25,897 bases of DNA from a virus. The stretch lies in the IMG/VR virus record IMGVR_UViG_3300048115_000399, positions 1 through 25,897 of that record; one strand, 5' to 3'. The notes under the pieces were generated by a model. The model made no database searches. It saw nothing but the letters and a program-made list of their open reading frames with translations, and was not told the origin of the DNA. The position numbers were made by a program, and so were the translations under genes. Positions 5,028 to 25,897 of the stretch are shown here, piece after piece (positions within the stretch are counted from its first letter, which is position 1; each line of letters opens with the position of its first letter).

Positions 5028-5057
5028 CAAAGATACTAACAAAATTTGATAAAACAA
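5028..5057 (-). promoter_or_regulatory. Bacteroidota housekeeping-type promoter (replication block)
   Basis: On the minus strand TTG (5057-5055), a 19-nt spacer, then TATCTTTG (5035-5028) match the Bacteroidota consensus TTG-N19-21-TAnnTTTG exactly. The start codon served (5003) is about 25 nt downstream. The flank around the -33 (AAAAGCTTGT) is shared with the promoter at 24423-24452. A terminator lies immediately upstream, so this promoter starts a new transcription unit. Confidence 0.8.
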
Positions 5058-7719: not shown

Positions 7720-7725
7720 ATTTTA

Positions 7726-10007: not shown

Positions 10008-11960
10008 TTATTTTTTGCCTCCACTCCAATTCGGATGATGCCCACCATTAGGCATATCAACAGGTGCCACAATCGATTCTGCTGTGCCTCTTGGGTTTAT
10101 ATTATACGACTTAGGTATTGACCTTGTTCTTTGATAATCATTGAAAGCAGGGCTTGTAATCGTCTTGCTTTTTAATCTGTATAAAACTTTTTTCCAAACA
10201 TGGTGGCAATATGGTCCTCCCTTATATTTGAATAAATCGTAAGGTTGTGATTTATGACCGAAATTTGAATTGATCCCCTCTCTGCTTGCTTTGTCAATGT
10301 CTTCAATTCTGTAAACTGCAGGATAGCCCCTTGAATCAAATCGACTCATCATTGTAGAACAGAAATCTCTGCTATCGCTTGATGATTGTTTCTTTTGATG
10401 ATACTTATATCTAATCTTGTAAAATGATTTATCTAAGTAACTAAATCCCTTTGGTTTTGGCGTTACATATCCTGCGAGCTTTTGAGCTAAGTTCTTTTTT
10501 TCATCCAATAAATAATTAGCCCAAACTTCATCGTCATACTCTTCGCCATCGCACTCAATCTCATCTACAATCTCCCATTCGTCCAAAATCTCTTCATGCT
10601 CTAAATTATTGAGTATAGCTTTTGAGATGTCCTCTGTCAATTCGACCTGCTCCGACAAATCATGCGATTCGCAAGGCATGTACCAAATTTTATCATCCAA
10701 TTTATGTTCGTGATATCCCTCACATCCCATCTCTTTAGCTACTGCGATTGCCTCCTCTTTAGTATCAAATGCACTTCGTCCATCTATTTGTTTTGAAGTT
10801 AATTTGACTCCTGTTTCCTCTTCTCTTGTTTCGCTGTCTATTGTAGTATCAATTTCGACAAACTCAAGTGGTTGAAGAGTCTTAAAATAAAGATTTAATG
10901 TAACCTCATTAAAGGCAAGTATCTTATCAAAAGCATCAAGTAATAATTCTTGAAATGGGCGAATCACAGTATTGTCCATCAATACACTTGCGACCTTTAA
11001 TTCATCGGCATTGTTTCCGAGTCCTGTTTGATCCTTGATTCCCAATAACATAGGCGATGTAATTCTATGCCCTAACATTATTTTGCGAGTACTCTCTGAA
11101 CTTAGAAACTCATACTGCAAATGTGCATCACTTAATTGAACTGCATCAATGCTACTTTGTGAATCTGTATTCTCGTTAAAGCTGAGTATAAATTTGCCTG
11201 CGTTTGAGCTGCCGCTGTACTTCTCGTAAATTCTCCTTTCAATCAATTCTCTCTCCTCTTCATTCGGTACTCCATTGTTGAAGTTGATTAACATGCTTGG
11301 GGCAAGCCCATTTTTTATGTTAGACAAGTGATAGTTTGAAACCTCCTCCTCTAATTCAGCATATTGCAAACTGCCTTGGTAATCTACAGGCGAAAAGTAA
11401 TAGTGTCCTGCAACGTAAGGTTTGATGTATAACAATTCGATTGCCTCATTGCTTGTTCCAAAAGCAGGTATTCTTTGAGGTTCATCCTGAGGTTTGATTT
11501 TAGCCCAATCGTGAAAATAGTAATAGCCCTTGACTTCTCCATCATCGTTTGCCTTTTCAATTGCAATTGTCTCAATAGGTAAGTGCTCAATTTGTGCAAT
11601 CCTTTTTCGATCCTTTGAGTAAATTATTTGAACTGCACATTGCCCCATTAGTTTGAGATCATACGCTAATTTGCGAGTGCAATCTTTATTGAACAAAGAT
11701 AATGCCTCTGCATATTCATTCGGCTTTTTATTGCTGTCTGTTGCATCTAATCCTTTGCCATAAATCATCTGCGAAATTCCATTGATAATCGCATTGTTTG
11801 TTGGGCTTCCTGAATATCTGTCTAAAAGGTAACTAAAGTATTCATTCTTTGTGCCATAGGTAACCCATGTTTTGTCCTTAGTAACCTTGATTTCAGGTGA
11901 AGTATAGTTGCTTAGATTTACAACATTAATTTTACCCTTTTCTGTACGTCTTCTGCTCAT
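10008..11960 (-). CDS. Portal protein with fused C-terminal Cys/His and MuF-like region
   Basis: Protein of 650 residues. Residues 1 to about 365 form the portal core, the ring through which DNA is packaged: TNNAIINGISQMIYGKGLDA near 54-73, KDCTRKLAYDLKLMGQCAVQ near 92-111, LEEEVSNYHLSNIKNGLAPS near 203-222, and the stem/crown-like helix region near 315-350. An acidic linker follows. Residues 399-433 hold possible metal ligands (GCEGYHEH, then MPCESH: C413, H417, H419, C430, H433). Residues 515-600 (RDFCSTMMSRF, YRIEDIDKAS, NFGHK, YKGGPYCHHVWKKVLYR) resemble the C-terminal part of MuF/minor head proteins. The ATG at 11960 overlaps the upstream stop. The C-terminal domains need structural confirmation. 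Confidence 0.75.
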   Translation of the reverse strand: MSRRRTEKGKINVVNLSNYTSPEIKVTKDKTWVTYGTKNEYFSYLLDRYSGSPTNNAIINGISQMIYGKGLDATDSNKKPNEYAEALSLFNKDCTRKLAYDLKLMGQCAVQIIYSKDRKRIAQIEHLPIETIAIEKANDDGEVKGYYYFHDWAKIKPQDEPQRIPAFGTSNEAIELLYIKPYVAGHYYFSPVDYQGSLQYAELEEEVSNYHLSNIKNGLAPSMLINFNNGVPNEEERELIERRIYEKYSGSSNAGKFILSFNENTDSQSSIDAVQLSDAHLQYEFLSSESTRKIMLGHRITSPMLLGIKDQTGLGNNADELKVASVLMDNTVIRPFQELLLDAFDKILAFNEVTLNLYFKTLQPLEFVEIDTTIDSETREEETGVKLTSKQIDGRSAFDTKEEAIAVAKEMGCEGYHEHKLDDKIWYMPCESHDLSEQVELTEDISKAILNNLEHEEILDEWEIVDEIECDGEEYDDEVWANYLLDEKKNLAQKLAGYVTPKPKGFSYLDKSFYKIRYKYHQKKQSSSDSRDFCSTMMSRFDSRGYPAVYRIEDIDKASREGINSNFGHKSQPYDLFKYKGGPYCHHVWKKVLYRLKSKTITSPAFNDYQRTRSIPKSYNINPRGTAESIVAPVDMPNGGHHPNWSGGKK

Positions 11961-12361
11961 AATACAATATAGTCATTTGTGCTTGTTTCTTTTTCAATGT
12001 AATTTCCTTTATTGATATTGTAGGATTTTTCATTGACTTGATTGATTTCCTGATCTGTAACAAAGATCTTGTCTTTGTAAACTACCCTTTTTTTGGGTGG
12101 TGTTGAAACATCATTATTTGTTATCCACAAGCTGTAAGTCATTCCCTCCTGCAATCCTACAGGTTCAAAATTGACTTTAATATAATCTCCATAGCTTTGG
12201 GTTGTATAGCTTTGATTTGTGATGTTTTCTCCTGTTATATCATCCACAATATAAGCTGTGTAATCTTCTGCCCATAAACTGCCCTGTGGTGCCGAAATAA
12301 AATAAAACTCTTGTTGTCTTATTCCTCCGTTACCATCATCGCTTGTTTTTAATAGTATCAT
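11957..12361 (-). CDS. Hypothetical virion-block protein, 134 aa
   Basis: Protein of 134 residues, beta-rich and polar: QQEFYFISAPQGSLWAEDYT, AYIVDDITGENITNQSYTT, YIKVNFEPVGLQEGMTYSLW. The strand pattern suggests an immunoglobulin-like or carbohydrate-binding-like sandwich, perhaps a capsid decoration or tail accessory protein, but no family is recognised. It is the first gene of the portal-to-lysis unit. Its ATG lies 5 nt downstream of the bipartite late-promoter-like motif, and its stop overlaps the portal ATG. Confidence 0.6.
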   Translation of the reverse strand: MILLKTSDDGNGGIRQQEFYFISAPQGSLWAEDYTAYIVDDITGENITNQSYTTQSYGDYIKVNFEPVGLQEGMTYSLWITNNDVSTPPKKRVVYKDKIFVTDQEINQVNEKSYNINKGNYIEKETSTNDYIVL

Positions 12362-12364
12362 ATA

Positions 12365-12393
12365 TGTATAACGCTATTTGTATGAATTTTTGT
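12365..12393 (-). promoter_or_regulatory. Candidate phage late promoter, copy 3
   Basis: The minus strand reads ACAAA (12393-12389), 14 nt, GCGTTATACA (12374-12365), then 3 nt and the ATG at 12361. It is the same bipartite motif as at 15466-15494 and 23408-23436 and does not contain the host TAnnTTTG element. It lies 10 nt after a terminator, so it should start a new transcript (small virion protein, portal, fibre, lysis). Confidence 0.65.
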
Positions 12394-12403
12394 GAAATAA
12401 TTT

Positions 12404-12433
12404 AAAAAAAAAAGAGCCACATTCTTGTAGCTC
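12404..12433 (-). terminator. Rho-independent terminator after the capsid unit
   Basis: The minus strand forms a 7-bp stem, GAGCTAC / GTGGCTC (12433-12427 with 12420-12414, one G-U), with a 6-nt loop and ten T (12413-12404). It lies 26 nt after the tail tube-like stop. Sequence around the stem (TTGAAAGGGAG on the 5' side, CTC plus T-run on the 3' side) is shared with the terminator at 23450-23477. Confidence 0.8.
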
Positions 12434-12459
12434 CCTTTCAACTCGACTAAAATCCAATT

Positions 12460-12996
12460 TTAGATATCTGTAATGTCAGATGTAGAAACTGTGATTCCAA
12501 CTCCTGTAATTCCTCCTGATAAGAAATTAGCAGGTTTTTTCTCCATTCCTTGAAGCGTTAAAGTGTAACCGCTGAGGTCTCCCATTGCAGCTCCACTCAC
12601 AACTGTGCCTCCATTTACGTCCGCGCCAAACTCACTTCCAACTAAAAAGAAATTGCCATTGTTATCTTCAACCACAACGTGTGGTCTTGCAACTGCAATT
12701 ACTGCCAATTGGTCGTTTGATTCAGGCGATAGCTTTTTTAATGTTAAATTAACTATTTGATCATAAAAAGTAGTGCCATTCTCTCTGCTTGATGTGATGG
12801 TTTGTTCTAATGAAGAGTTGCCTTTCAATACATATTTGTAAGCTGTCGGCGATCCTGCTACTGCTGTAATTTCATCACTTGTAGATGCGTAAGTAATATC
12901 TCCTAACGTACCGAAGTCAATGAAATAAACAGCCTGCAACCCACCTACGCTATCCTTGCAAGGTTCTGTTCTCCCTTTTGTTATTAAGCATGCCAT
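12460..12996 (-). CDS. Major tail tube-like protein
   Basis: Protein of 178 residues, probably the tail tube subunit. It begins MACLITKGRTEPCKDSVGGL; further on come YKYVLKGNSSLEQTITSSRE, NGTTFYDQIVNLTLKKLSPE, HVVVEDNNGNFFLVGSEFGAD and MGDLSGYTLTLQGMEKKPAN. This pattern is familiar to me from flavobacterial phage virion proteins placed next to the capsid gene. Length and the beta-hairpin/strand rhythm fit tube proteins. Against this, the tail assembly chaperone and tape measure are in another block upstream, so an alternative is a second abundant virion protein. It follows the capsid gene by 70 nt and precedes a terminator. Confidence 0.6.
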   Translation of the reverse strand: MACLITKGRTEPCKDSVGGLQAVYFIDFGTLGDITYASTSDEITAVAGSPTAYKYVLKGNSSLEQTITSSRENGTTFYDQIVNLTLKKLSPESNDQLAVIAVARPHVVVEDNNGNFFLVGSEFGADVNGGTVVSGAAMGDLSGYTLTLQGMEKKPANFLSGGITGVGITVSTSDITDI

Positions 12997-13025
12997 TTGT
13001 TATATTTTTTATTTGTTATGGATTT

Positions 13026-13050
13026 GTGGGTCAGAAAAAATCCAACCCAC
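13026..13050 (-). other. Hairpin between capsid and tube genes
   Basis: A 6-bp perfect inverted repeat (GTGGGT ... ACCCAC) with a 13-nt loop lies in the 70-nt gap between the capsid stop and the tube-like ATG. No T-run follows on the minus strand, so it is not a standard terminator. It could protect the 3' end of the capsid message or tune the amount of downstream product. Confidence 0.35.
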
Positions 13051-13066
13051 TCTCTCCGAATTATTA

Positions 13067-14014
13067 TTAAGCTCCGTAGTAAACAATGTCAGATGCAACA
13101 CCATACTGCACACCTGCTGTGTAACGCATAATGAATCTAACATTTTTGCTTCCGTCCAAATCTGCCATGTCCAACACTCGCACCTCATTGTGATCGTTGA
13201 GTAATCCTGTGCCGAAAAATAGGTTAGATTTTTGAGCAGCTACCATTCTGTTGTCTGCAAGTCCATTTGCAACAACAATAGAAACTCCATCAAAAGAAAG
13301 CCCTGCTCCTCCATTGTACCACATTGTACCTTGTGCACCGATACCTGAGTTGTTTTCTCCGTTTACGAAACTTCCGAATCCACCCAAAGCACGAACATAA
13401 GCACGAGCGATATTTTGAGAAACATATATTAGCATGTCTTCTTTATTGTATAGTGATGAAGGTATTGCATCAACTACTTTTCCAAGCTCTCCAATTACGT
13501 TGCTTGATGTAACTGTTGCAGGAGTCTCGACATGACCACCTGCTGATGCGAATGCTGCATCTGCAAATAGAGTAGAGAATCCATCAAAAGTTCCTGCTCC
13601 TGCTGATCCTGACCAAATAGATGTCTCAGTTGCTGATGCTACATCTGCAGAGATTCTTGCGATAAAGAAATCGCTGAATTTTGGAGGTAGCGAGTCGTGT
13701 GCTGAAAAGCCCATTGACTCAGCCTCCCAATCGTCCTGAAATGGAGTCTTGCAAAGCTCTAAGTTCACTTGTAACTCTTTTGGTTCAAGTATTCTTTCAG
13801 TTAGATCAACTGATCCTGTGTCTGTAAATCCGCAAGTTGCATTTGCGATAGCAGAAGTGTAATCAACTTTTTTGATCACTTCTTTTAATTTGATGTTTGG
13901 CTTAACTGTGATTAGTTGGTTAGCCAATGTGTTACCACTTAATAGAGCCGCTCCGATATATTCTCCTGCAAACTGCCCTGCATAAGTAGATGTAATAGAT
14001 ACTGATGTTGCCAT
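13067..14014 (-). CDS. Major capsid protein
   Basis: Protein of 315 residues, probably the major capsid protein of the HK97 fold. It begins MATSVSITSTYAGQFAGEYI; then come ILEPKELQVNLELCKTPFQD, the Ala/Gly-rich helical region with DVASATETSIWSGSAGAGTF (spine helix and loop), GKVVDAIPSSLYNKEDMLIY, VSQNIARAYVRALGG, and C-terminal strands (VRFIMRYTAGVQYGV) typical of the A-domain. Its place after protease and scaffold-like genes is the classical one, and it lacks a long delta-domain because the Glu-rich scaffold-like protein is separate. The ATG at 14014 follows the scaffold stop by 5 nt. Upstream AT-rich sequence shows no SD. Confidence 0.85.
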   Translation of the reverse strand: MATSVSITSTYAGQFAGEYIGAALLSGNTLANQLITVKPNIKLKEVIKKVDYTSAIANATCGFTDTGSVDLTERILEPKELQVNLELCKTPFQDDWEAESMGFSAHDSLPPKFSDFFIARISADVASATETSIWSGSAGAGTFDGFSTLFADAAFASAGGHVETPATVTSSNVIGELGKVVDAIPSSLYNKEDMLIYVSQNIARAYVRALGGFGSFVNGENNSGIGAQGTMWYNGGAGLSFDGVSIVVANGLADNRMVAAQKSNLFFGTGLLNDHNEVRVLDMADLDGSKNVRFIMRYTAGVQYGVASDIVYYGA

Positions 14015-14019
14015 TTTTA

Positions 14020-14682
14020 TTATTGTTTAATGTTTAAAATTTTGCTCACTATTCTATCGTAAGCGGTTATATTCTTGTTAGTGTTAAATTTGAATTTAGC
14101 CTTGAAAGCACTCTCCTCTTTTGGTGCATGCTTCAATGGTTCTGTTGCAGGTTTTGAAAGCTCTTCTTTCAACTCTTCTTGCTCACTAACCTCTTCGTTA
14201 GTAGCATCCGACTCGACTTGCTCATTCTTAACCTCTGCCTCAACCTCTTCTGTCTGCTCACTCATTTTCTCCTCTGTGATAGTCATTTTTTCAATCATTC
14301 CCTTGATCTCTTCTAAGGCAGTATAAAATTCTTCTTTTGAAACGTATTCCATTTTTTCTTCCTTTGGTTCATCCTCCAAATTAGCTTCGACCTCTTCCTC
14401 TTGCTGAACTTCCTTTTCAGCCTCTTCCTTTTCAGCCTCTTCTTGTTCTCCAATCATAGCAATAATGCCATCCTCTTCGACAATTAGTTTTTTGCCATCT
14501 TCCATTTTATACTCTCCTTTTGGTAGAGCGACCTTGTCATCCTCTGTAACAATAAAAACCGACTCTCCTTTTGCAAAGCTATCTGCTTCAACAATAGTTC
14601 CGTTGTCTAATTTCATTTGTTCCAAATTTACTTGCAAGCCCAAAACTTCTTTGACTTTGTTTAGTGTTGTTGTTGCACTCAT
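14020..14682 (-). CDS. Glu-rich scaffold-like capsid assembly protein
   Basis: Protein of 220 residues; probable scaffolding protein for procapsid assembly. The N-terminal 75 residues are compact (LGLQVNLEQMKLDNGTIVEA, VALPKGEYKMEDGKKLIVEE). Residues about 78-190 are strongly acidic and low-complexity (EEAEKEEAEKEVQQEEEVEA) with a predicted helix (SKEEFYTALEEIKGMIEKMT). The C-terminus turns basic (FKAKFKFNTNKNITAYDRIV), as scaffold C-termini that bind capsid subunits often do. Position between protease and capsid supports the role. The Glu runs are encoded by GA-rich repeats. Confidence 0.7.
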   Translation of the reverse strand: MSATTTLNKVKEVLGLQVNLEQMKLDNGTIVEADSFAKGESVFIVTEDDKVALPKGEYKMEDGKKLIVEEDGIIAMIGEQEEAEKEEAEKEVQQEEEVEANLEDEPKEEKMEYVSKEEFYTALEEIKGMIEKMTITEEKMSEQTEEVEAEVKNEQVESDATNEEVSEQEELKEELSKPATEPLKHAPKEESAFKAKFKFNTNKNITAYDRIVSKILNIKQ

Positions 14683-14732
14683 TTTTCTGATTTATTTAAT
14701 TAACGATTTTAATTTTAAAAATTGCGTTTAAG

Positions 14733-14885
14733 CTATTCATTTTCTTTTGAATATACTGATCCAATACCTTGTGCCATTAAACTGCCATCACAACATTTTC
14801 TGTGATAAGTATTGTCCTCACACAAACATCCTCTTTTACCATTTTTAGGGCTTGAATAACTCGGTGTTTTAAAATATCTATTCAT
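14733..14885 (-). CDS. Small Cys-rich conserved phage protein, 50 aa
   Basis: Reading from the ATG at 14885 gives 50 residues with the core RGCLCEDNTYHRKCCDGSLM followed by AQGIGS. The C-x-C ... K-C-C-D-G-x-L-x-A-Q-G-I-G pattern recurs, as I recall, in small flavobacterial phage proteins of the capsid region; function unknown. Four Cys (20, 22, 31, 32) could form a zinc knuckle. The ATG overlaps the protease stop by 8 nt; a 50-nt non-coding gap (14683-14732) separates its stop from the scaffold-like gene. Confidence 0.65.
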   Translation of the reverse strand: MNRYFKTPSYSSPKNGKRGCLCEDNTYHRKCCDGSLMAQGIGSVYSKENE

Positions 14886-15462
14886 TTGAAATTATATTTT
14901 TTAATGTTTGAATGATTTGTTGATTCATCTCCTCCTCAGTAATTTTATTTCCCTCTGCTTTATCAGCGAAGTAACCCTCAATGCTAAAGCCTTTGACCTT
15001 TCCTGTTTTTACATATTCATTCCAAACCTGATCATTGTCAACCTTTACTGCTCCAACCCAACTGCCTAATGGCAAGTCCATTCCATAAATGTTTGACTTG
15101 TCATTTTTTTTATCCTCAACCAACCATGATTCAACAAGAGTTAACCCCTTTAAATCCTCACTATGCTCCAAAGTGGAGTTGGCTTGGTTTCCTTGTTTTA
15201 GGTATAGTTGGGATGCTTTCTGAACTGTCTCTCTGCTGAAATAAATATAGTATTCATCTTCTCCATTTTTTCTGTAAATAGGTTTATTAGGTATCAGTAT
15301 TGGTCCGACTAAGATTTTTCGCTCCTTGTCTTGTTCTGCGAATCTAAACTCTTGCGACTTTAAAGCAACAAAGTCCTGCTCAATTGCAGGAGATTCAACA
15401 ACAGAAATTGCTTCAACAAAATTGTCTTGATCTTCATCCAAAATTAGTTCGACTATTCTCAT
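14878..15462 (-). CDS. XkdF-like prohead (capsid maturation) serine protease
   Basis: Protease of about 194 residues, of the XkdF/Peptidase_S78_2 type, that should process scaffold and capsid proteins in the procapsid. Hallmarks are VVESPAIEQDFVALK near 21-35, VGPILIPNKPIYR near 52-64, LEHSEDLKGLTLVESWLVED (H100 and S112 as likely catalytic His and Ser), LPLGSWVGAVKV near 130-141, and VKTGKVKGFSIEGYF near 151-165. I chose the ATG at 15462 because it sits 5 nt downstream of the conserved motif and gives the usual start (MRIVELIL); an upstream in-frame codon at 15522 would overlap the tape measure gene. First gene of the capsid unit. Confidence 0.85.
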   Translation of the reverse strand: MRIVELILDEDQDNFVEAISVVESPAIEQDFVALKSQEFRFAEQDKERKILVGPILIPNKPIYRKNGEDEYYIYFSRETVQKASQLYLKQGNQANSTLEHSEDLKGLTLVESWLVEDKKNDKSNIYGMDLPLGSWVGAVKVDNDQVWNEYVKTGKVKGFSIEGYFADKAEGNKITEEEMNQQIIQTLKNIISNE

Positions 15463-15465
15463 AAT

Positions 15466-15494
15466 TGTATAACGCGTTAAATTTATTTTTTTGT
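15466..15494 (-). promoter_or_regulatory. Candidate phage late promoter, copy 2
   Basis: The minus strand reads ACAAA (15494-15490), 14 nt, GCGTTATACA (15475-15466), 3 nt, then the ATG at 15462. It fits entirely into the 34-nt gap between the tape measure stop and the protease start. No terminator precedes it, unlike the other two copies, so the capsid unit may also be read from upstream. Confidence 0.65.
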
Positions 15495-15496
15495 GT

Positions 15497-18079
15497 TTAA
15501 CCGATGGTTGCACCATCAACAATGTTTCTCTCTAAACTTTGTGCTGTTGTAACATCTTGACTCGTAACAAATGCTTTGATTGGTTGCTGTTGCTGACCTG
15601 CTATTGCATCAGCTAATTGATTTGTTCCGCTTGATCCAACTATATTAAATGCAGGTAATTGTGATCCTCCCTCAGCATTTGCCATTCTCGGTGTTGAAAC
15701 TGTTGGGGCTGATCCTCCTCCCCCTCCTGAAGCTCCTGATTTTGCAACTGCTTTTTTTACGCTCCTCATTAAAGCAATTCCTTGACCAACAGCCATTGCA
15801 ATAGTAATGATGTTTTGTGGAAAACCGATTTTTGAACTTGACGAAATGTTTTTTGCTGAATCAACTGCTGACTCAGCCACAGCTTGTTTGCCTTTGAATG
15901 AAATCCTTTTGAGTTCCAAAATACTCTCTTTTAGCATCAATGCTTGTTTTGCAACAAGTAATGCTTTTCCGACTCCACTCTCTGCACCTGCTACTGAGAT
16001 CACAGCATCCAATGTGTCAAGCTTATCTTGCCTCTTTTTAGCCTCAATATCTGAAAGGTGCTCTTGCTCTTCTGTATTGATTTCAACCATCCGATCTGCA
16101 AGCTGTTTTTTAAGCAAAGCCTTTTGCTCATCGTTCAACAACTCATCTTCAAGCAATAATGCTTGTTGCTCTTTTATTTTCTCTCTTCTTTCGCTAAATT
16201 GTAACTCATCAATTTCTTTGTCGAAAGTGAATTGATCAAGCTTTTCTTGGTTTTTCTTATTTCGATCCGATTGAGCTTTTTCTTCATCTTTAGCTTTTGC
16301 CTCCTTTTCTAAACTATCATAAAAATCGTTAATTTGCTTTTCTGCTTTTCTTTTCTCCTCTGTAGTTAACTTTAAAGCATCCAACTCCTCTAATGCTCTT
16401 TGACGTTTTCTTTCTGCTTTTTCTAATTCTGATTTGTCGACTAAATTCTCAGATGCTTGTTGATATTTTTTTTCAATAGCAGCCAACTTTTTTAAATCAC
16501 TTTCCCTCTGCTTTCTTGCCTCTTCTGCCGCTTTTTTTCTATTCTCTTCTGCCTCTGCATCAAACTTAGCTTGTTGCTCCTGATTCTTTTTTTCTTGTTT
16601 TTTCTTTTCTTTTCTCTCTGCTTGTCCACTTCTTTCTGCAGCGAATCTAATTGCCGCTGTCAATCGGTTTTGAGCAACCTGTGCAAATTTTTCTGCTCCT
16701 GCCTGAATATCCTTTGCCCCATCCTCAACCAATTTTTTAGCCTCATCAAATCTTTTTTGAGCGGCTTTTTTATCAATAGCTTTTCCGATCAAAGGTATTT
16801 TTGAAATTGCCAAAATAGCACTATTAGCAAACATTCCTATTGCACCGCCTAAAATTTTCAATAGCCCTTTTAGTATATCTACGTTTCCACTAACTGCAAG
16901 TTTGATATTGTTCCATGATTCACGAAAGCTAAAAGCCAAAACATCAATAACAAATCCCAATCCCTCGATTGCTAATGTCAACCCCTGAATGACTTTCCTT
17001 TGTAAGAAATTTATTGGTCCCTCTCCATCTTCAAAGCCCAAAAGTAAGCCCTCCCAAGCTGATCCAAGTTTTGTCATATCCCCATCTAAATTGTCGAGTC
17101 TGACCTCTGCCATTTTTGCTGCAGCACCCTCAGCACCCTCAAATTTTGAAGTCAAATCGTCCAATTCCTGATTGCCGACTTTTGCTAAGTTAAGTAAAGC
17201 TTTACCTCCATTGATTCCTACCAACTCGATTGCTGTGTTCAACTTGTTTGAAGAGCCATTGACCTGATCCATAGCCTCCTCTAAAGTCAATCCCTTTTTT
17301 GATAACTCAATAAATGTCTTAGCAAGTCCTGTTCCTGCCATACTGCCTGTGATACCTGTATTTGCCAATCCACCAAGCAATGCTGTTGTTCTCTCAACGC
17401 TCACTCCGACTGCAGATGCGGCAGGTGCAACCATTTTCAAACTCTCTCTCAACTTATCAAAATCCAAAGCTGTTGTTGAGGTGCTTTTAGCAAAGACATC
17501 TACCAACCTTTGTGTGTCCTCAGTTTCCAAACCAAATGCACGAACTGTTGATCCTGCAAAAGCAGCAGCCTCACTCAATCCAATCTCCAAAGATGCAGCC
17601 AAATCCAAAATAGCAGGAGTTGAATTTTCAATGTCTTGTAATGAAAACCCTAACTTAGCTAATTCGGTCTGTAAACCCAAAACTTGCTTTGCTGTAAAAG
17701 CTGTTGTTGATCCTAATTGCTTTGCTTGATCAGTAACTCTCTCCAATTCATCTGCTGTCTTTCCTGTAACTGCTCTTAATGTAGAAACACCTTTCCCAAA
17801 CTCAGCACCTGCCTTTGCAGCTTTAGCCATAACACCAACCAAAGCACCAACTGCCACAACTATTGCTCCGACTCCTGTTGAAATAAGTGCAATTTTGAAA
17901 GCGTTAAGTGCAGGGATTGCAGATAATATGCCTGCCCTCATTGCACCAAAAGCACCTGACAAACCTTTGCTTGTAGTCTTTGCAGATTTACCTGTCTTTT
18001 GTAAACCCTTGTCAAGCTTTGCTACGCTTTGTTGCGCCTTGCCTGTTTCTATCTTTACAATTATTGTTTCTTGCGCCAT
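15497..18079 (-). CDS. Tail tape measure protein (TP901 core type)
   Basis: Protein of 860 residues that sets tail length and passes into the cell during DNA ejection. After a basic N-terminus comes a hydrophobic stretch (residues about 51-90: PALNAFKIALISTGVGAIVV, then VGALVGVMAKAAKAG). The TP901-type core follows (KTADELERVTDQAKQLGSTT, TAKQVLGLQTELAKLGFS, LDLAASLEIGLSEAAAFAGS, TTALLGGLANTGITGSMAGT). Two more hydrophobic segments lie in the middle (GLTLAIEGLGFVIDVLAF; ILGGAIGMFANSAILAIS), then a long Lys/Glu/Ala coiled coil (about 490-690) and a Gly-rich C-terminus. At about 1.5 Å per residue this would suit a tail near 130 nm, which is inference. The ATG overlaps the 49-residue gene. Confidence 0.9.
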   Translation of the reverse strand: MAQETIIVKIETGKAQQSVAKLDKGLQKTGKSAKTTSKGLSGAFGAMRAGILSAIPALNAFKIALISTGVGAIVVAVGALVGVMAKAAKAGAEFGKGVSTLRAVTGKTADELERVTDQAKQLGSTTAFTAKQVLGLQTELAKLGFSLQDIENSTPAILDLAASLEIGLSEAAAFAGSTVRAFGLETEDTQRLVDVFAKSTSTTALDFDKLRESLKMVAPAASAVGVSVERTTALLGGLANTGITGSMAGTGLAKTFIELSKKGLTLEEAMDQVNGSSNKLNTAIELVGINGGKALLNLAKVGNQELDDLTSKFEGAEGAAAKMAEVRLDNLDGDMTKLGSAWEGLLLGFEDGEGPINFLQRKVIQGLTLAIEGLGFVIDVLAFSFRESWNNIKLAVSGNVDILKGLLKILGGAIGMFANSAILAISKIPLIGKAIDKKAAQKRFDEAKKLVEDGAKDIQAGAEKFAQVAQNRLTAAIRFAAERSGQAERKEKKKQEKKNQEQQAKFDAEAEENRKKAAEEARKQRESDLKKLAAIEKKYQQASENLVDKSELEKAERKRQRALEELDALKLTTEEKRKAEKQINDFYDSLEKEAKAKDEEKAQSDRNKKNQEKLDQFTFDKEIDELQFSERREKIKEQQALLLEDELLNDEQKALLKKQLADRMVEINTEEQEHLSDIEAKKRQDKLDTLDAVISVAGAESGVGKALLVAKQALMLKESILELKRISFKGKQAVAESAVDSAKNISSSSKIGFPQNIITIAMAVGQGIALMRSVKKAVAKSGASGGGGGSAPTVSTPRMANAEGGSQLPAFNIVGSSGTNQLADAIAGQQQQPIKAFVTSQDVTTAQSLERNIVDGATIG

Positions 18080-18210
18080 GATATTTCTCTTTTAGCTTGT
18101 TTAAAGCCCTCTTTTATTGTTTGGGGTAATTTATACTTTCCTTGTGCAATTCTTATGCTTTCGGTTTCTCCATTTAAGTAGGGTAATAATTTTATTATTT
18201 CGTTTATCAT
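18061..18210 (-). CDS. Small protein between tail-tip and tape measure genes, 49 aa
   Basis: Reading from the ATG at 18210 gives 49 residues: MINEIIKLLPYLNGETESIR, then IAQGKYKLPQTIKEGFKQAK and a basic end (REISWRKKQ). It is helical and basic; no family is recognised. The ATG overlaps the stop of the 733-residue tail protein, and its 3' end overlaps the tape measure start by 19 nt, so it fills the gap completely. It may assist tape measure or tail-tip assembly. Confidence 0.6.
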   Translation of the reverse strand: MINEIIKLLPYLNGETESIRIAQGKYKLPQTIKEGFKQAKREISWRKKQ

Positions 18211-20411
18211 TAGTATATGTTTGATGTATAATTAAACAATTCTAACTTGCTCTCATTATTTTTAAGATTAGTTGTTATGCTGTTTATTATGTAAAATCTA
18301 TTTCCTATTTGCAACCTGTCTGCGAGTGAATAATTCCTTAAAAAATCAGATGGTAAAAAAGCTGTGATTTTTACTGCTCTTCTTTTCTGACTGAAAACTT
18401 CTTTTATGTATTTTAAATAATACTCATTAAATAAACTCCGATCCTTTGTGATTCCTGTCCATTCATCAACTTCTGATCCAAAGTTTATTGTTTCTTGCTG
18501 TAAGCTATTTGCAGCACGATTGTATTGTGTAACAGGTGCTGCATTGTTAGAATCAATGCCTGAATAAAAACTCAATCTTCTTGCGTAGCCTGTTTGTGTT
18601 TGCCTTCTTAAAAAAAGTAGAGGTTTTGTAAGTGTAGCATTTTGATCCTTATCAACACTCCATCCGACTGCTATGTTTGTTCGTACGCTTCCATCCGACA
18701 GCCTTTCGTAAATCATTTTTTCAAAAGGTAAAGTAATTACATATTTGTTGCCTCTATCTGTTGAAGCAACTTCAGGTTGCTGAGTACAATTCTCTAAAAA
18801 TCCAAACTTGTTATTGTTGATCTCATTAAAATTGTGAGCCAAAAATGTCTTAGGTTCTTGCCATCTCAAAGCGACCTCTTGATATGGTATAGCATAGTCA
18901 ATATCTGATTTGTTTTTAGCTACATATTTAGTAATGTCTCTTACAATTCCTGTCTCCATAAATTTGTCTAAAGTCATGACCTTGACCTTGCCATCTCTTT
19001 GAATAAAAGCTGTTAGGTTAAACATCTTAAACATGCCTGTCAAAAATTCTAAAACCTTGATATTAGGCATTTGATCTGACATAACTATTCTCGAAACCCC
19101 TGTTGTTGGCTGTATGTCTCTAAATTGTTGCTCAAAACTTATAGTATAATTTGAAAAAAAACTGTTTAAAATTCTTGATCCTTTTATTCTTAAATCAGCT
19201 GAGTAAGTAAAATTAGGATCGCTTGTTTCAATAACCCATCGAAAAGATTGTCTGTTTGTTCCTAAAATAAAAGATTGTAAAACACCTGTTCCTGTTTGAT
19301 TTTGTATTGAATTTTGTATTGATGTTGTGCCTGTAACATTCTCACAAATGATGTTAAACGGTTGACTGCTTGATGATGTTATAGTTAATGAATAAGAATA
19401 AGATTCGCTCTGTGCTTGGTAATTAGGGTAACCCAATCCATTGTTGTAATACCAACTATCACAACTCCAAATCCCTCCTGAGATTTCTGAGTTTGCACAA
19501 GGGAATGGTGTTATACCACCAAATGCATTTGCATTTGTGTAACAAGTTGCATCCTGAAGTGGGTTGATGACTGACCAAGTATTGATGTCTCCTGCAATAT
19601 ATCCGATCCCTGTGATAGGTATTCTAATTTGACTGCCTCCTGAATAACTGACTGCAAGGTCTCCCTTTTGTCTTGCTATCCACAAATATAGCTTGTCGTA
19701 GATATCATTTTGAGATGTATTAAAAAAAGAATCTGCATCTGTTTTGTTAAATTCTAAACCTGCAAAATTCTCAATCTCCTCAATGACTTTTGAAACCCTG
19801 ATTGCAGGTTTTAAATCTGTATATCTGACTCCTTGATTGTTTGTAGGGCCACTCCCTGCATAGTCCAAATTGCGACTCCCTGCAGATGTATTTGAACTAT
19901 CGAAATAAAGCCTCTCTGTGTGAGATATTAAGGGGTAAATAATATTATTTGATATTAAATTTGCTCTCAAACCCTGCAGAACATTTGCTCTGTTATAATC
20001 ATGATTGTAAGTTGTAACTGCCTCGAAAACATTTTGAAGTGAAATCTCTTTTAATTTTTTTTTGAGATCAACTGTTTCTCCAAAAAATGTCGCCTTGTAA
20101 GCATAAGGTTTATTGTTTGTCATTTTGACTCCATCCAAAGCCAAAAATCCTTTTCTAAATTCTTGTTGATTTAACAAAATTTTTGCAGGTAATTTGTCAT
20201 TTGCATTGAATCCATTAGCAATCCCATCGTCATAAAAATGCTTAAAAACTCGATTGTTGATTTTAGATGCAGGCATTGTAAACGACTTAGAAAAATCAGT
20301 GAAGATTGATCCAATGTCTTTCACATTTTGAATTGTTTGTGTAAGAGTAATGCTCTCATCTTTAAAAAGCTCTACTCTCTGACCATCAACAAAAAGCTGT
20401 ACTATCTGCAT
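18210..20411 (-). CDS. Tail tip / baseplate-like structural protein, 733 aa
   Basis: Large virion protein of 733 residues. The N-terminus (VDGQRVELFKDESITLTQTI, QNVKDIGSIFTDFSKSFTMP, ASKINNRVFKHFYDDG) is a signature I associate with conserved Bacteroidota phage tail-tip proteins, playing the distal-tail/hub role. A beta-rich middle (270-420) is Ser/Asn/Gly-rich. The later part (MPNIKVLEFLTGMFKMFNLT, AFIQRDGKVKVMTLDKF) has the strand-helix form of hub (gp27/Tal-like) domains. The C-terminal SLADRLQIGNRFYIINSITT and NNESKLELFNYTSN resemble tail-hub OB-type ends. It is coupled to the 388-residue gene with no gap. The exact position in the tail is inferred from order: before the tape measure here, whereas such genes usually follow it. 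Confidence 0.65.
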   Translation of the reverse strand: MQIVQLFVDGQRVELFKDESITLTQTIQNVKDIGSIFTDFSKSFTMPASKINNRVFKHFYDDGIANGFNANDKLPAKILLNQQEFRKGFLALDGVKMTNNKPYAYKATFFGETVDLKKKLKEISLQNVFEAVTTYNHDYNRANVLQGLRANLISNNIIYPLISHTERLYFDSSNTSAGSRNLDYAGSGPTNNQGVRYTDLKPAIRVSKVIEEIENFAGLEFNKTDADSFFNTSQNDIYDKLYLWIARQKGDLAVSYSGGSQIRIPITGIGYIAGDINTWSVINPLQDATCYTNANAFGGITPFPCANSEISGGIWSCDSWYYNNGLGYPNYQAQSESYSYSLTITSSSSQPFNIICENVTGTTSIQNSIQNQTGTGVLQSFILGTNRQSFRWVIETSDPNFTYSADLRIKGSRILNSFFSNYTISFEQQFRDIQPTTGVSRIVMSDQMPNIKVLEFLTGMFKMFNLTAFIQRDGKVKVMTLDKFMETGIVRDITKYVAKNKSDIDYAIPYQEVALRWQEPKTFLAHNFNEINNNKFGFLENCTQQPEVASTDRGNKYVITLPFEKMIYERLSDGSVRTNIAVGWSVDKDQNATLTKPLLFLRRQTQTGYARRLSFYSGIDSNNAAPVTQYNRAANSLQQETINFGSEVDEWTGITKDRSLFNEYYLKYIKEVFSQKRRAVKITAFLPSDFLRNYSLADRLQIGNRFYIINSITTNLKNNESKLELFNYTSNIY

Positions 20412-21578
20412 TTATCTTACATTTTGAATTGTGTCAAAAGCATATTCAAATTCAAATGTGTATTGAATCAGCTTGTCATTGACTCCTGTTTTAAATTGTT
20501 GACTCGATGTTTTAACAATTACAGGCACGACGCTTAAATCTTCAAACTCCAACCAAACGCTCTCAGATAAAAGCAATTGCTTGATAGGATCATTCATGCA
20601 CTCTCCAATAAATCCTGTATTGCAAACTATTCTCTCATTTGCCGAAATATCAAATCTCTGTTTTGTATGGGAGTTAGTATCATAGCTTGGTATTGTGGTT
20701 GTATAATCTAAAATGTTTGCTTTAAATTCCTGATCTCTAACCTGTATAGATTGTATGCTTTTCTTATCAACCCAAATATCCTGCAACGCTCCATATTTAT
20801 TGTAAAATACCACTCTTATTTTTTCAAACTTTCCACATTGTAATCGGTTAAGAGTAAGAACTGTGGTTTGACTTGATCCTACATTGCTTTGTATTGTAAT
20901 TGTATCTCCATCTCCAAATTGTCCTGCACCTAAAATCAAGTATTGTATTTTATCATTTGAATCACTACTATCTGTAATCACTTGACTAACTGCTGTTCCA
21001 TCCCAATTAACATCTGCTGCAGTCCAATAGTATTCTGTCTCATTCCAATATCCTGCCCCTCCGATGTAATTTGCTGTGCCTTGTGGCTCTGAAAATAAAG
21101 GGATTCGTATATCTCTCCCTGTTGTAAAATAGACACAATGATTGTCTTGCAATACTTGAGGTGTAAAAGGTTGTGCAGGATTTTGAGGTTGATTAAATCT
21201 TCGTGGGTTTGATCCCTCATTAAAATAGCCGAATCCATCAAAAGCCAAAAAATTTCTATCGTCTTGCTCTGTGAAAACTGTATTGTCAAACTCTGTTATA
21301 ACTGCATCTAACTCAACCCAAACTGCATCAATAGCAGATGTGTAGTATTTTGTAAACAATTCATCTCGAATAAACTCTGCTATGTCAATAACAATGTAAG
21401 GTGTATTTGTAGATACGATTTCTCTCTCAATATAGAAATCCGATGTCGGAGGTTTATCTGTTCCGAAAACTCCACTGTAAATAAAAACATTTACTTGCAC
21501 CCCAACTAAAGTTCGGTTGCTTTGTGTTGCCTCATATTTAACGAAGTACGGACTTCTTGCATTTATGATTGTACTCAT
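20412..21578 (-). CDS. Tail structural protein, 388 aa, beta-rich
   Basis: Protein of 388 residues beginning MSTIINARSPYFVKYEATQS, then LVGVQVNVFIYSGVFGTDKP, which reads like a fibronectin-III or Ig-like strand pattern. The middle has NGxxY-type turns and many aromatic residues (YIGGAGYWNETEYYWTAADV). The C-terminal part (ANERIVCNTGFIGECMNDPI, KQLLLSESVWLEFEDLSVVP) is compact and seems conserved in related phages as I remember them. Probably a tail-tip component working with the 733-residue protein directly downstream. The ATG at 21578 overlaps the stop of the gp10-like gene (ATGA). No enzymatic motif is visible. Confidence 0.55.
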   Translation of the reverse strand: MSTIINARSPYFVKYEATQSNRTLVGVQVNVFIYSGVFGTDKPPTSDFYIEREIVSTNTPYIVIDIAEFIRDELFTKYYTSAIDAVWVELDAVITEFDNTVFTEQDDRNFLAFDGFGYFNEGSNPRRFNQPQNPAQPFTPQVLQDNHCVYFTTGRDIRIPLFSEPQGTANYIGGAGYWNETEYYWTAADVNWDGTAVSQVITDSSDSNDKIQYLILGAGQFGDGDTITIQSNVGSSQTTVLTLNRLQCGKFEKIRVVFYNKYGALQDIWVDKKSIQSIQVRDQEFKANILDYTTTIPSYDTNSHTKQRFDISANERIVCNTGFIGECMNDPIKQLLLSESVWLEFEDLSVVPVIVKTSSQQFKTGVNDKLIQYTFEFEYAFDTIQNVR

Positions 21579-22159
21579 TGGTTATCTGTTTTTCTATTTT
21601 GATATTTTTCTTTGATCATAGTAACTAAATCTCTGACAAAACCCTGAGTCACTTCATCAGGCAAACGACCATACGCTCTGTTGTAAGGGTTTGAAAAAAA
21701 ATAAGTAGGTTTGATCCCCTGAGCATAGATAAACTTGCTTAAAACGAATCCAATTGCTTTGTAGTTGCCTTTTGCGAATCTCCCCTTTTCATCTCTCAAT
21801 CTAAAATTTTTTCTTTTAGCCCATTCTGTAAGAGGTTTCATTGGTGGGTATTTACTTTTGAAACTGAATCTGCTTAAAGGTGCTTTTTGAACTCCTGTTC
21901 TTTTTTTTCCATTAGCAGTCCATCTGTCAATGATTGATGGGTCTGCACCTTTGACTCCCTGATCAACAAATGCTCCATACTTCCCCAAATTAAAAACAAC
22001 AGAAAACCCTTTTTTGTCCTCAATGATTGAATAGTTTAATGCTGAATAAAGCAAACCCTGATCAATCTTTTTTCTCCTTGTTAGGTTGCCTCTTGATTTA
22101 GCTATTACATTCTTGCCAAAAGCTTCAATGACTTGTCTTGTTTCTTTTAGGTATTGCAT
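21575..22159 (-). CDS. HK97 gp10-like head-tail connector / neck protein
   Basis: Protein of 194 residues, basic, probably a neck or tail-completion protein. The N-terminus is helical and basic (FGKNVIAKSRGNLTRRKKID), followed by LLYSALNYSIIE, FSVVFNLGKYGAFVDQGVKG (the strand plus YGxFVDxG feature of HK97 gp10-like proteins), KYPPMKPLTEWAKRKNFRLR, and the C-terminal helix QGFVRDLVTMIKEKY. Its place next to a tail-terminator-like gene matches the usual pairing. The ATG overlaps the upstream gene by 13 nt. The assignment depends on motif and order. Confidence 0.65.
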   Translation of the reverse strand: MQYLKETRQVIEAFGKNVIAKSRGNLTRRKKIDQGLLYSALNYSIIEDKKGFSVVFNLGKYGAFVDQGVKGADPSIIDRWTANGKKRTGVQKAPLSRFSFKSKYPPMKPLTEWAKRKNFRLRDEKGRFAKGNYKAIGFVLSKFIYAQGIKPTYFFSNPYNRAYGRLPDEVTQGFVRDLVTMIKEKYQNRKTDNQ

Positions 22160-22647
22160 CGATCAATGTTATTTCTTGTTTCTACATTAAAGGTAAAACT
22201 CCATCCTGCCAACAAATTTTCAAATCTGTCTTTGAATGGCTCTGCCTGTACTGATTCTCTGACTATCCTTGTATTGCCATCATTCTTTGAGCCACTATTA
22301 AAAATGTCTGTAACGTGATTCCCTGAATTTAACATTGAATTAAAAACCCAATTTTCATTGTCATTTGCATAAATCTCTGCCTCTGTAATATCAACTCCTG
22401 TCTCCTTGCCCTCTGTAACCATATCCATAAAAAGAATTGTAACATTGTAGGTAATTATTGTACTATTAAACTGAGCACTATTTACAATAATGTGAGCCAA
22501 AGGAAAGATGCTTTGCTTATCCAAATCAACTTCACTAATGTCTCCCTGTGAAACTGTATTGATTAGCTTATTATCCAAGCAACTATCTCTCAGGATTTCG
22601 ATTAGTTGTAAAAAACTTTTTGATCCTTGATTTTGATTTACTGCCAT
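22147..22647 (-). CDS. Tail terminator-like protein, 166 aa
   Basis: Protein of 166 residues with an alpha/beta layout like tail-terminator (gpU/gp17-type) proteins: a long first helix (SKSFLQLIEILRDSCLDNKL), strands FPLAHIIVNSAQFNSTIITY and NVTILFMDMV, a helix around NENWVFNSMLNSGNHV, and a last strand pair (FENLLAGWSFTFNVET). It begins immediately after the stop of the frameshifted chaperone reading frame (TAA directly followed by ATG) and overlaps the gp10-like gene downstream. Function is inferred from order and fold impression only. Confidence 0.5.
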   Translation of the reverse strand: MAVNQNQGSKSFLQLIEILRDSCLDNKLINTVSQGDISEVDLDKQSIFPLAHIIVNSAQFNSTIITYNVTILFMDMVTEGKETGVDITEAEIYANDNENWVFNSMLNSGNHVTDIFNSGSKNDGNTRIVRESVQAEPFKDRFENLLAGWSFTFNVETRNNIDRCNT

Positions 22648-22905
22648 TTAAAATTTGTTTTTAATTTCCTTGCCCTCGATTGATTCCTTTTCTTTTATGA
22701 ATGCTAACATTGTAAAACAAAAATTTACATTTAATTTAGTGACCTTTTCAATTCTTGTAATGTCTCCCTTACTGAGTGCAAAGAGTGATTGATACCATCC
22801 CCATTTGTTTGAGAAGCCGCTTTGAGCGCTTGTTGTATTTCCCTCTGTTTGCCCTTGTCCAAATAAGTCATCATAGCGGTCGAGCAATCTATCCCTAAAC
22901 GATAA
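22648..22905 (-). CDS. -1 frame extension of the tail assembly chaperone
   Basis: This second reading frame is reached from the chaperone gene by a -1 slip on the T9 run at 22904-22912. The fused product would have about 251 residues: 166 of the first frame plus 85 here, starting LSFRDRLLDRYDDLF. The key segment is SNKWGWYQSLFALSKGDITR, then EKVTKLNVNFCFTMLAFIKE; the K/W-GWY-x-x-x-x-x-L-A-x-GD-I/L pattern is typical of the T part of phage G/GT chaperones. In-frame TTG at 22887 is the first possible independent start, but no ATG exists, which favours frameshifting. As in lambda G/GT, the long form should bind the tape measure and the short form the tube protein. Confidence 0.7.
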   Translation of the reverse strand, partial: LSFRDRLLDRYDDLFGQGQTEGNTTSAQSGFSNKWGWYQSLFALSKGDITRIEKVTKLNVNFCFTMLAFIKEKESIEGKEIKNKF

Positions 22906-23402
22906 AAAAAAACTATTGATGAAACTACTGCATCCAAAGGCATTTTGAGCATAACATCATGAAACTCCTCTCCATGATAATCGTAAAGAATGTATTTGTC
23001 TTTTAGTTTCTGCTTGATAGGGCGATATAGCACAGCCATAGCTTTGTGAACTTGCTGAATGTCTCCCAAATGATTATCGATGTCAATATACTCTCCGAAA
23101 GTCAAATCCTCTAAATTAGGCACAAACCCAAACTCACTCTCTCCCATTTTAAATGTCCTTACAAGTGGAGGTGTTTTTTGTATGATATCATAAATCTTTG
23201 TGGCGATCCTTTCAAAATCGACTAACTTCATGTTGTTAGCAACATCATAAGAAACATTGCAAAAGATTTCAATTAATTTACAAGTTATAAATCTTTCCGA
23301 CTCTTCGACATCTTCGTTTGCTTTTATGATCCTTTCGTATTTTTGATATTGCTCCAATGTAATATCACTCAAAGAATCAGGCACATTGATTTTTATTTCC
23401 AT
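22731..23402 (-). CDS. Tail assembly chaperone, zero-frame (short) product
   Basis: Protein of 223 residues; the short, abundant form of a G/GT-type tail assembly chaperone. It begins MEIKINVPDSLSDITLEQYQ and is largely helical: LEQYQKYERIIKANED, TCKLIEIFCNVSYDVANNMK, FGFVPNLEDLTFGEYIDIDN, MAVLYRPIKQK, VSSIVFFYRLGIDCSTAMMT. Codons 164-166 (GTT TTT TTT) form the slippery site. The zero frame continues to 223, ending with NGDGINHSLHSVRETLQELK, which looks family-typical rather than random, so both products are likely real. The ATG lies 7 nt downstream of a conserved bipartite motif. First gene of the tail unit. Confidence 0.75.
   Translation of the reverse strand: MEIKINVPDSLSDITLEQYQKYERIIKANEDVEESERFITCKLIEIFCNVSYDVANNMKLVDFERIATKIYDIIQKTPPLVRTFKMGESEFGFVPNLEDLTFGEYIDIDNHLGDIQQVHKAMAVLYRPIKQKLKDKYILYDYHGEEFHDVMLKMPLDAVVSSIVFFYRLGIDCSTAMMTYLDKGKQREIQQALKAASQTNGDGINHSLHSVRETLQELKRSLN
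22904..22912 (-). other. Programmed -1 frameshift slippery site (T9)
   Basis: The minus strand carries nine T, read in the zero frame as GTT TTT TTT TAT. The heptamer T TTT TTT is a perfect X-XXY-YYZ slip site in the correct phase, and a -1 shift leads exactly into the frame encoding the GWY-containing extension. I checked the rest of the overlap (22731-22903) and saw no other in-phase slippery heptamer. Confidence 0.7.
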
Positions 23403-23407
23403 ATATA

Positions 23408-23436
23408 TGTATAACGCTATTTTAAAAATTATTTGT
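23408..23436 (-). promoter_or_regulatory. Candidate phage late promoter, copy 1
   Basis: The minus strand reads ACAAA (23436-23432), 14 nt, GCGTTATACA (23417-23408), 5 nt, then the ATG at 23402. Over the 18 bases atatgtataacgctattt (plus strand) it is identical to copy 3 at 12365. It stands 13 nt after a terminator and opens the tail unit. Confidence 0.65.
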
Positions 23437-23449
23437 AAATCTAAGTAAT

Positions 23450-23477
23450 AAAAAAAAGAGGCACATTAATGCACCTC
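23450..23477 (-). terminator. Rho-independent terminator before the tail unit
   Basis: The minus strand forms an 8-bp stem, GAGGTGCA / TGTGCCTC (23477-23470 with 23465-23458, two G-U pairs), with a 4-nt loop and eight T (23457-23450). It lies 28 nt after the stop of the 78-residue gene. It resembles the terminator at 12404-12433 in sequence and in its distance from the late-promoter-like motif. Confidence 0.8.
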
Positions 23478-23505
23478 CCTTTCAATTATAATAATAAAAA
23501 ACAAT

Positions 23506-24422: not shown

Positions 24423-24452
24423 CAAAGATATCAAATAATTTTAATAACACAA
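24423..24452 (-). promoter_or_regulatory. Bacteroidota housekeeping-type promoter (small-gene unit)
   Basis: The minus strand reads TTG (24452-24450), 19 nt, TATCTTTG (24430-24423): a full match to TTG-N19-TAnnTTTG. The region just upstream (AAAAAAGCTTGTGTTAT) closely matches the promoter at 5028-5057, so the two probably respond together. It serves the five small genes starting at 24397. Confidence 0.8.
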
Positions 24453-25044: not shown

Positions 25045-25074
25045 CAAATATAAAACACATAATTGAGTTATCAA
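25045..25074 (-). promoter_or_regulatory. Bacteroidota housekeeping-type promoter
   Basis: The minus strand reads TTG (25074-25072), 19 nt, TATATTTG (25052-25045), a full match to the Bacteroidota consensus. It lies in the gap between the terminase stop (25115) and the ATG at 25019. The plus-strand text tacaaatataaaacacat resembles the element at the left window edge (tacaaatataaaacgcat). Confidence 0.8.
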
Positions 25075-25114: not shown

Positions 25115-25897
25115 TTATCTGATAGCGTAAGTACCATAATTAGGTTTGCCCAATTTATTTACAATCGAATATCTCAGGGCATCAAGCGAATGGTTGAAAG
25201 CATCAATCGGCTTATTTGTTAGCTGTCCATTCTTGTCCTCTATGTATTTGTAATTTCTCAACTCCTTAATCATATTAACGCTGTCAGTCGTAACATGCAA
25301 TCTGTATCTCCTGATCATATCGATTCCGATATTGATACTGCCCTTTGCTGTTTTCTTTGCATTGAATCCCATTCTGAATATCTCCTCAATAGATTTCGGC
25401 TCTGCTGAGTCGCACCAAATCTCATCTCTCCGATCTAATCCCAAACGCTTTAGCTCGTTTCCGATATCCTGATTTGTCATTCCTGTTCTGTATAACAACT
25501 CTCTGCAGTACATATCATCCCCCTCAATGAATGTTTCAACCAAAGCTGTGCTGTCATTTGAGAAACCAAAATCCAAACCTCTGCCAATTAATTTTGCAGA
25601 TTCAGGTATGCTGTCTATTGTTTGAAATTTAAAAACAAGTGAGCGACTTGCTCCCCTCTCTCCCAAACCATAAACCCTCCAATAGTTATCGTCAATGTCT
25701 TTTAGCCTTTCAATCTCATTGACAAGCGATTGCTCTAAAAATGGATTATCTTTGTATGTTGTTTGATAAAATTCAACATCCTCTCTTGTTAGCACCTTGT
25801 CATAAATCCAATGGTATTCGTCTGATGGATTGTAGTCAATTATTATTTGCTCAGTTGTTCTAAACAATAATTGTTGCCAATCTTCAAAGTATAATTC
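25115..25897 (-). CDS. terL: Terminase large subunit, C-terminal nuclease part (partial)
   Basis: The last 260 residues of the DNA-packaging motor subunit; the N-terminal ATPase lies beyond the window edge, and the reading frame is open to base 25897. The RNase H-like nuclease that cuts concatemers is complete. GRGLDFGFSNDSTALVE gives the first catalytic Asp (codon near 25573), EIWCDSAEPKSIEEI the second (near 25411), and DAFNHSLDALRYS the third pair (near 25204 and 25183). The pattern NPFLEQSLVNEIERLKDIDD, YWRVYGLGERG upstream is the normal lead-in to the nuclease. Directly downstream is not the portal, as is usual, but a set of small genes and the tail block. Confidence 0.95.
   Translation of the reverse strand, partial: ELYFEDWQQLLFRTTEQIIIDYNPSDEYHWIYDKVLTREDVEFYQTTYKDNPFLEQSLVNEIERLKDIDDNYWRVYGLGERGASRSLVFKFQTIDSIPESAKLIGRGLDFGFSNDSTALVETFIEGDDMYCRELLYRTGMTNQDIGNELKRLGLDRRDEIWCDSAEPKSIEEIFRMGFNAKKTAKGSINIGIDMIRRYRLHVTTDSVNMIKELRNYKYIEDKNGQLTNKPIDAFNHSLDALRYSIVNKLGKPNYGTYAIR

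Follow-up and report, generated by a model that had tools for sequence, protein, structure and literature searches.

The viral record IMGVR_UViG_3300048115_000399, analysed here over its full length of 25,897 nucleotides (nt; hereafter the window), raises the question of what signal opens its structural gene blocks. An initial annotation, made from the letters alone, had singled out a bipartite motif, ACAAA followed after exactly 14 nt by GCGTTATACA, ahead of three such blocks, and had proposed it as a candidate phage late promoter. This is now the best-supported reading of the motif, given its conservation, its strand bias, its placement at operon starts and the presence of distinct host-type promoters in the same genome. 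With good confidence, we consider it the late promoter of a clade of flavobacterial phages (flavophages) that is read by a sigma factor of their own, one resembling the extracytoplasmic function (ECF) family; recognition by sigma, late timing and start points are the predicted parts of this conclusion.

Copies of the element in the window

An exact pattern search of the window returned exactly three copies of ACAAA-N14-GCGTTATACA, all on the minus strand (23408-23436, 15466-15494 and 12365-12393), in agreement with the number and positions first reported. Copy 1 (23408-23436) comprises ACAAA at 23436-23432, the putative -35 box, and GCGTTATACA at 23417-23408, the putative -10 box, and precedes the ATG at 23402 of the first tail block gene (22731-23402, minus strand), which encodes 223 amino acids (aa) and has a PHROG match to phrog_32199. 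Copy 2 (15466-15494) precedes the ATG at 15462 of the prohead protease gene (14878-15462, minus strand; Peptidase_S78_2, PF14550, by Pfam and PHROG matches), which stands first in the capsid block. Copy 3 (12365-12393) precedes the ATG at 12361 of a 134-aa gene (11957-12361, minus strand) that stands immediately ahead of portal and is the first gene of the third late block. All three exact copies are operon starts, and the gene assignments agree with the tail, capsid and portal-fibre-lysis blocks originally named. The distance from GCGTTATACA to the ATG, initially given as 5-7 nt, measures 5, 3 and 3 nt for copies 1, 2 and 3, respectively. As had been remarked, the boxes and the distance between them are constant among the copies while spacers and flanks vary, and the spacer is equally free in relatives. 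A strong intrinsic terminator stands just upstream of copy 1 and another just upstream of copy 3. The first (23452-23483, minus strand; -15.8 kcal/mol, z -5.4) ends 15 nt before its copy and the second (12408-12439, minus strand; -16.3 kcal/mol, z -4.1) 14 nt before its copy. The gene that ends ahead of copy 2 is the tape-measure gene.

No further ACAAA-N14-GCGTTATACA copies were found in the window at two or fewer mismatches, and the pattern read backwards gave 0 matches. The initial statement that the motif occurs nowhere else is therefore correct for the exact pattern and up to two mismatches, and fails for a degenerate fourth copy, GCAAT-N15-CGTTAATTA (14697-14725, minus strand). Read as CAAT-N15-CGTTAATTA (14724-14697), this copy keeps the same 15-nt spacing and precedes the scaffold and capsid genes, with 23 nt from its C to the A of the ATG at 14682. 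The first of these genes encodes a 220-aa acidic protein (14020-14682, minus strand) that is scaffold-like by composition and by its position between the protease and capsid genes, and the second a probable major capsid protein (13067-14014, minus strand; phrog_11320, with a weak match to phrog_1623). Copy 4 is kept in the nearest relatives (G008, G037 and G041) as GCAA(A/T)-N15-CGTTAATTA, and the scaffold site in most other relatives is a full CGTTATATA site.

The host -7 box TAnnTTTG is missing from all three exact copies, as first noted, and a Bacteroidetes sigma-A promoter was rejected as the identity of the motif on this ground. Promoters of this housekeeping type, TTG-N19-TAnnTTTG, stand instead at early genes of the same genome, each on the minus strand and 24-25 nt before an ATG. 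One (5028-5057; ATG 5003) opens a replication and recombination stretch that ends with a sigma factor gene, which thus belongs to the early region and is preceded by a promoter of host type, and two others (24423-24452, ATG 24397; 25045-25074, ATG 25019) precede small genes. A generic sigma-70 promoter scan found no excess of promoters. A promoter for a T7-type single-subunit RNA polymerase was likewise rejected, the motif being bipartite with a free spacer rather than one continuous block, and the incomplete contig contains no unassigned open reading frame of the size of such a polymerase.

Conservation and concerted change in related phages

Relatives were collected with the portal protein, which matched about 600 stretches in IMG/VR, of which 79 loci were kept (53-77% identity). 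The only cultured phages matched by portal were the Nonlabens phages P12024S and P12024L, and matches in bacterial genomes were contigs binned with Flavobacteriaceae/Bacteroidia. The host of the window phage is thus very probably a marine flavobacterium, and the motif-bearing viruses are best explained as a clade of marine flavobacterial siphophage-like viruses that are kin of P12024S/L. The motif was not found in a distant portal relative from a Bacteroidia metagenome-assembled genome (RUG13263).

Phylogenetic footprinting of the start regions, which the initial annotation had put forward as a check, located the element ahead of the corresponding genes of P12024S/L and of about 35 related contigs from marine flavophages, with the positions of copies 1, 2 and 3 all kept. 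The input comprised 25, 58 and 96 sequences upstream of the orthologues of the three genes, some of them redundant. The element persists in relatives down to ~40% protein identity, with spacers free, and 97 unique sites yield the consensus [AG]CAAA[AT]-N15-CGTTATATA-N3-ATG. Although the -35 box played no part in picking these sites, positions -17 and -16 are A in 97/97 and 96/97 of them. A matrix scan of the relatives, in which each genome's own sites were excluded from its matrix, found about 3-6 sites in most genomes. Nearly all of these sites precede operon starts and lie on the coding strand, and they include two additional operons, scaffold/capsid and terminase. At the terminase operon the boxes are kept with the ATG roughly 35-50 nt or more away. 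Within the window a terminase copy would, from its place in relatives, fall beyond the contig end.

Across 26 genomes (625 kb), CAAA-N14/15-CG[AT]TATA has 66 matches on the forward strand and 0 on the reverse strand, compared with 0.88 per strand in dinucleotide shuffles. The ATG lies 12-16 nt after the C of CG[AT]TATA in 62 of these 66 copies, most commonly at 12 nt (33/66). The chance scatter inside genes that would have spoken against the initial proposal is not seen, since the copies fall on one strand and mostly just before an ATG. A scan of 2.9 million IMG/VR viral contigs by the DNA pattern GCAAA-N14-ACGTTATATA alone returned at least 120 loci, and 107 of the 120 listed encode relatives of the window late genes or sigma, whereas a scrambled -10 control gave 106 loci, 3 of them with window-gene relatives. 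An ATG follows within about 10 nt in 129 of 139 listed matches versus 29 of 106 control loci, and 19 loci among the listed matches carry two copies versus 0 in the control. The exact scan for the GCGTTATACA variant of the window returned true relatives plus mainly chance matches in unrelated contigs, because variants are lineage-specific. The group with the motif spans well over 100 IMG/VR contigs and is abundant and mostly uncultured.

The boxes differ between lineages and agree within genomes. The window lineage has GCGTTATACA; relatives G008 and G037 have TCGTTATACA, and most others ACGTTATATA. Box CGATATATA is found in G023, G028 and G029, TTTATATAT in G021, G031 and G032, CCAG-N15-TGTTATATA in G048 and ACAAA-N14-CGTTAATATA in P12024S/L. 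The spacer is one nt shorter in G030 and G027, and the group of G003, G004 and G006 has mixed variants. Boxes of non-homologous operons within one genome are alike, with a mean identity of 0.94 versus 0.71 in label shuffles, and 0 of 10,000 shuffles reach the observed value, a result that stays at 0 without the two most deviant lineages. That boxes of unrelated operons shift together points to a single diffusible, co-evolving reader for all copies.

In G047 and G048 (L263-L266), two relatives with an unchanged set of genes, CAAA at -35 has given way to CCAA/CCAC or CCAG. Their sigma recognition helix is changed as well (SIKRT rather than SLYNT), but the window lineage (SIRRT/TVRRA) retains CAAA, so that any link between helix and -35 box is tentative.

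A candidate reader and the alternatives

The initial annotation had read the two boxes as contact points of one protein. This idea now has a candidate protein, which the annotation had missed, and recognition of the boxes by it is predicted: a 174-aa ECF-like sigma factor encoded at 1242-1766 (minus strand; start uncertain, TTG). It contains regions 2 and 4 only, which together with its length fits the ECF range of about 160-200 aa. Pfam gives weak region 2 and region 4 matches, and phrog_1740 ('RNA polymerase sigma factor') matches at 2.5e-10. PDB sequence profile searches returned marginal ECF matches only or none. An AlphaFold2 model built from 59 homologues (predicted local distance difference test score, 80.6) has ECF sigma factors as its top PDB matches in a fold search; over 63 columns, the C-terminal domain of the model fits E. 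coli sigma-E region 4 in complex with -35 DNA at 1.3 A. A sigma homologue of ~170 aa occurs in all full-length or near-complete relatives examined, including P12024S gp33, and profile searches extend the family to >500 viral stretches. The window sigma alone matched nothing in a close-relative scan of IMG/VR or in a protein search of cultured phages; homologues were reached via genome neighbours and profiles. Across relatives, -10 divergence correlates best with divergence of sigma region 2.3-2.4, where a sigma factor is expected to read the -10 box (r 0.58, p 0.001), and does not follow portal, capsid or terminase divergence.

Two further observations concern these proteins. The family phrog_31712, filed as unknown function, holds the P12024 sigma-like protein (P12024L 21405-21884, L179), so far noted in P12024S/L only as a domain, and matches the sigmas of several relatives; it could be renamed ECF-like sigma factor. 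G031, one of the genomes with TTTATATAT boxes, has a second, diverged sigma-like gene (183 aa, 7632-8183) on the late-gene strand.

We hypothesize the following early-to-late switch. The host housekeeping holoenzyme would first transcribe the early genes, including the phage sigma gene, from TTG-N19-TAnnTTTG promoters. The phage sigma would then bring host core RNA polymerase to CAAA-N15-CGTTATA promoters, in which ACAAA would serve as the -35 element, followed by about 15 nt of free spacer and by CGTTATACA as an ECF-type -10 element. The operons opened in this way would be those for tail, protease, scaffold/capsid, portal-lysis and, outside the contig, terminase, with the terminators directly upstream separating them. 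With 3-5 nt between the end of the -10 box and the ATG, the predicted transcription start coincides with the ATG or is no more than a few nt away from it, and the late mRNAs would be leaderless or nearly so. The C of a CGTTATA-type -10 lies near -12 in ECF promoters generally; if this applies here, the ATG most commonly being 12 nt after that C, the same start position is predicted. Leaderless transcripts make up 5.5% of mapped mRNAs in Flavobacterium psychrophilum (PMC9723704), and such late mRNAs, if real, would be an uncommon mode in flavobacterial hosts.

Several observations weigh against this interpretation. First, the proposed start points and sigma-DNA binding are both predictions. Second, the Pfam scores fall below the curated cut-offs (Sigma70_r2, 20.2 versus 24 bits; r4_2, 16.7 versus 25.7 bits), and we therefore call the protein ECF-like rather than filing it as an ECF member. 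Third, the whole-chain structural alignment is loose (template modelling score, 0.34-0.39; predicted template modelling score of the model, 0.46), with mutual domain placement uncertain and single domains superposing well. Fourth, the strict pattern occurs in just 17 of 50 contigs picked by sigma alone, most of these contigs being fragments and two long exceptions having altered boxes. Fifth, one tail protein among 12 other proteins compared correlates with the -10 box as well as whole sigma does (0.51 versus 0.46), and -35 divergence does not follow sigma region 4, which makes the correlation supporting rather than decisive. Finally, the lineages share kinship, leaving few independent box shifts.

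The nearest competitor keeps the late promoter and replaces its reader with a host ECF sigma. Hosts of this kind have such factors: F. psychrophilum encodes seven ECF sigmas, and a CGT box is conserved at the -10 of its SM6 motif (PMC9723704). We regard this as unlikely, given that a sigma-like gene is retained in every full-length relative, that concerted shifts to CGATATATA, TTTATATAT or CCAG...TGTTATATA are easier to explain with a phage-borne reader, and that the -10 box follows region 2.3-2.4 of the phage sigma. Less probable still is that the boxes are an operator for a phage activator or repressor, with promoters elsewhere. A bipartite element with constant spacing could equally be contacted by a DNA-binding dimer, and the transcription starts given here are predicted ones. 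The boxes show no palindromic symmetry, however, do not repeat one another directly and are used in a single orientation. Placed 14-15 nt downstream of terminators and 3-5 nt ahead of the ATG, they also leave no space for a promoter between box and gene. The fixed short distance of most copies to an ATG would agree with a translation-initiation signal, a non-Shine-Dalgarno leader of the first genes. Yet the element marks operon starts only, not each gene, and the boxes persist at the distant terminase ATG, which argues against such a signal; it would, moreover, have no role for a -35 half 20 nt upstream, so we judge it very improbable. Chance similarity or duplicated leaders, conceivable for three exact copies in an AT-rich genome, are refuted by spacers and flanks that differ around constant boxes and by the comparative strand and shuffle counts given above.

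With the phage-borne sigma as the favoured reader, the variants CGTTATACA, CGTTATATA, CGATATATA, TTTATATAT, CCAG...TGTTATATA and CGTTAATATA may form a natural series of co-evolved ECF-like sigma/promoter pairs that express most late operons as leaderless mRNAs, a broader proposal on which we are evenly divided.

Relation to known systems and neighbouring genes

Phage sigma factors drive structural genes in T4 (gp55) and SPO1 (gp28/gp33-34), as proposed here. A T4 late promoter consists of TATAAATA at -10 alone and depends on a sliding clamp as co-activator; in both phages the sequences and sigma families differ from those of the flavophages. The B. subtilis sigma-W promoter, a typical ECF case, reads TGAAAC-N16-CGTATA. 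Closer in organization are phiEco32 and 7-11, which, like the window phage, combine a phage-encoded divergent sigma with a common motif before structural genes and host-type promoters before early genes (PMC4331800). Their motif consists of one -10-type block (tAATGTAtA / TGATGT), for which no -35 box is reported (PMC4331800), unlike the bipartite -35/-10 flavophage motif, and they are much larger enterobacterial podophages, whereas the present phages are flavophages of ~30-36 kb. ECF promoters such as those of sigma-W and F. psychrophilum SM6 (PMC9723704) resemble the flavophage element in pairing a two-domain sigma with a -35 and a short -10 starting with CGT across a 15-16 nt spacer. They differ in their AAC-type -35, the flavophage (A/G)CAAA lacking the AAC core. 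The flavophage system further differs from ECF systems in serving phage late genes, in a -10 that abuts the start codon and in having no anti-sigma identified.

Phage-sigma-driven late promoters are thus already known, and the bipartite ECF-like flavophage version is apparently undescribed in the literature searched: no description was found in work on flavobacterial phage or P12024 promoters, most subscription papers lying outside the search. The analysis predicts an early-to-late switch for an abundant group of marine flavophages and names its probable regulator. Turnover that takes in all late promoters of a lineage provides a natural data set on the evolution of sigma specificity, and the sigma/promoter pairs could be used as orthogonal expression tools in Bacteroidetes. 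The cultured P12024 phages make the scheme directly testable.

The contig is broken within the terminase large subunit gene (window 1 and 25897), whose open reading frame (25115-25897, minus strand) lacks its N-terminus. The gene order of relatives suggests that the window is a nearly complete genome, which lacks this N-terminus as well as the small terminase gene and the promoter that goes with it. The sigma gene is followed by genes for a 126-aa protein of unknown function (865-1245) and a 162-aa protein without a PHROG match (65-553), either of which could be a partner or antagonist of sigma; in P12024 a VRR-NUC gene immediately precedes the sigma gene. The portal protein (10008-11960, minus strand; Pfam and PHROG matches) includes a small DUF3721 domain. 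It also has a long extension at its C-terminus, which is kept in the IMG/VR relatives and unmatched in P12024S/L. A NinG/Rap-like DNA junction endonuclease is encoded at 5157-5555.

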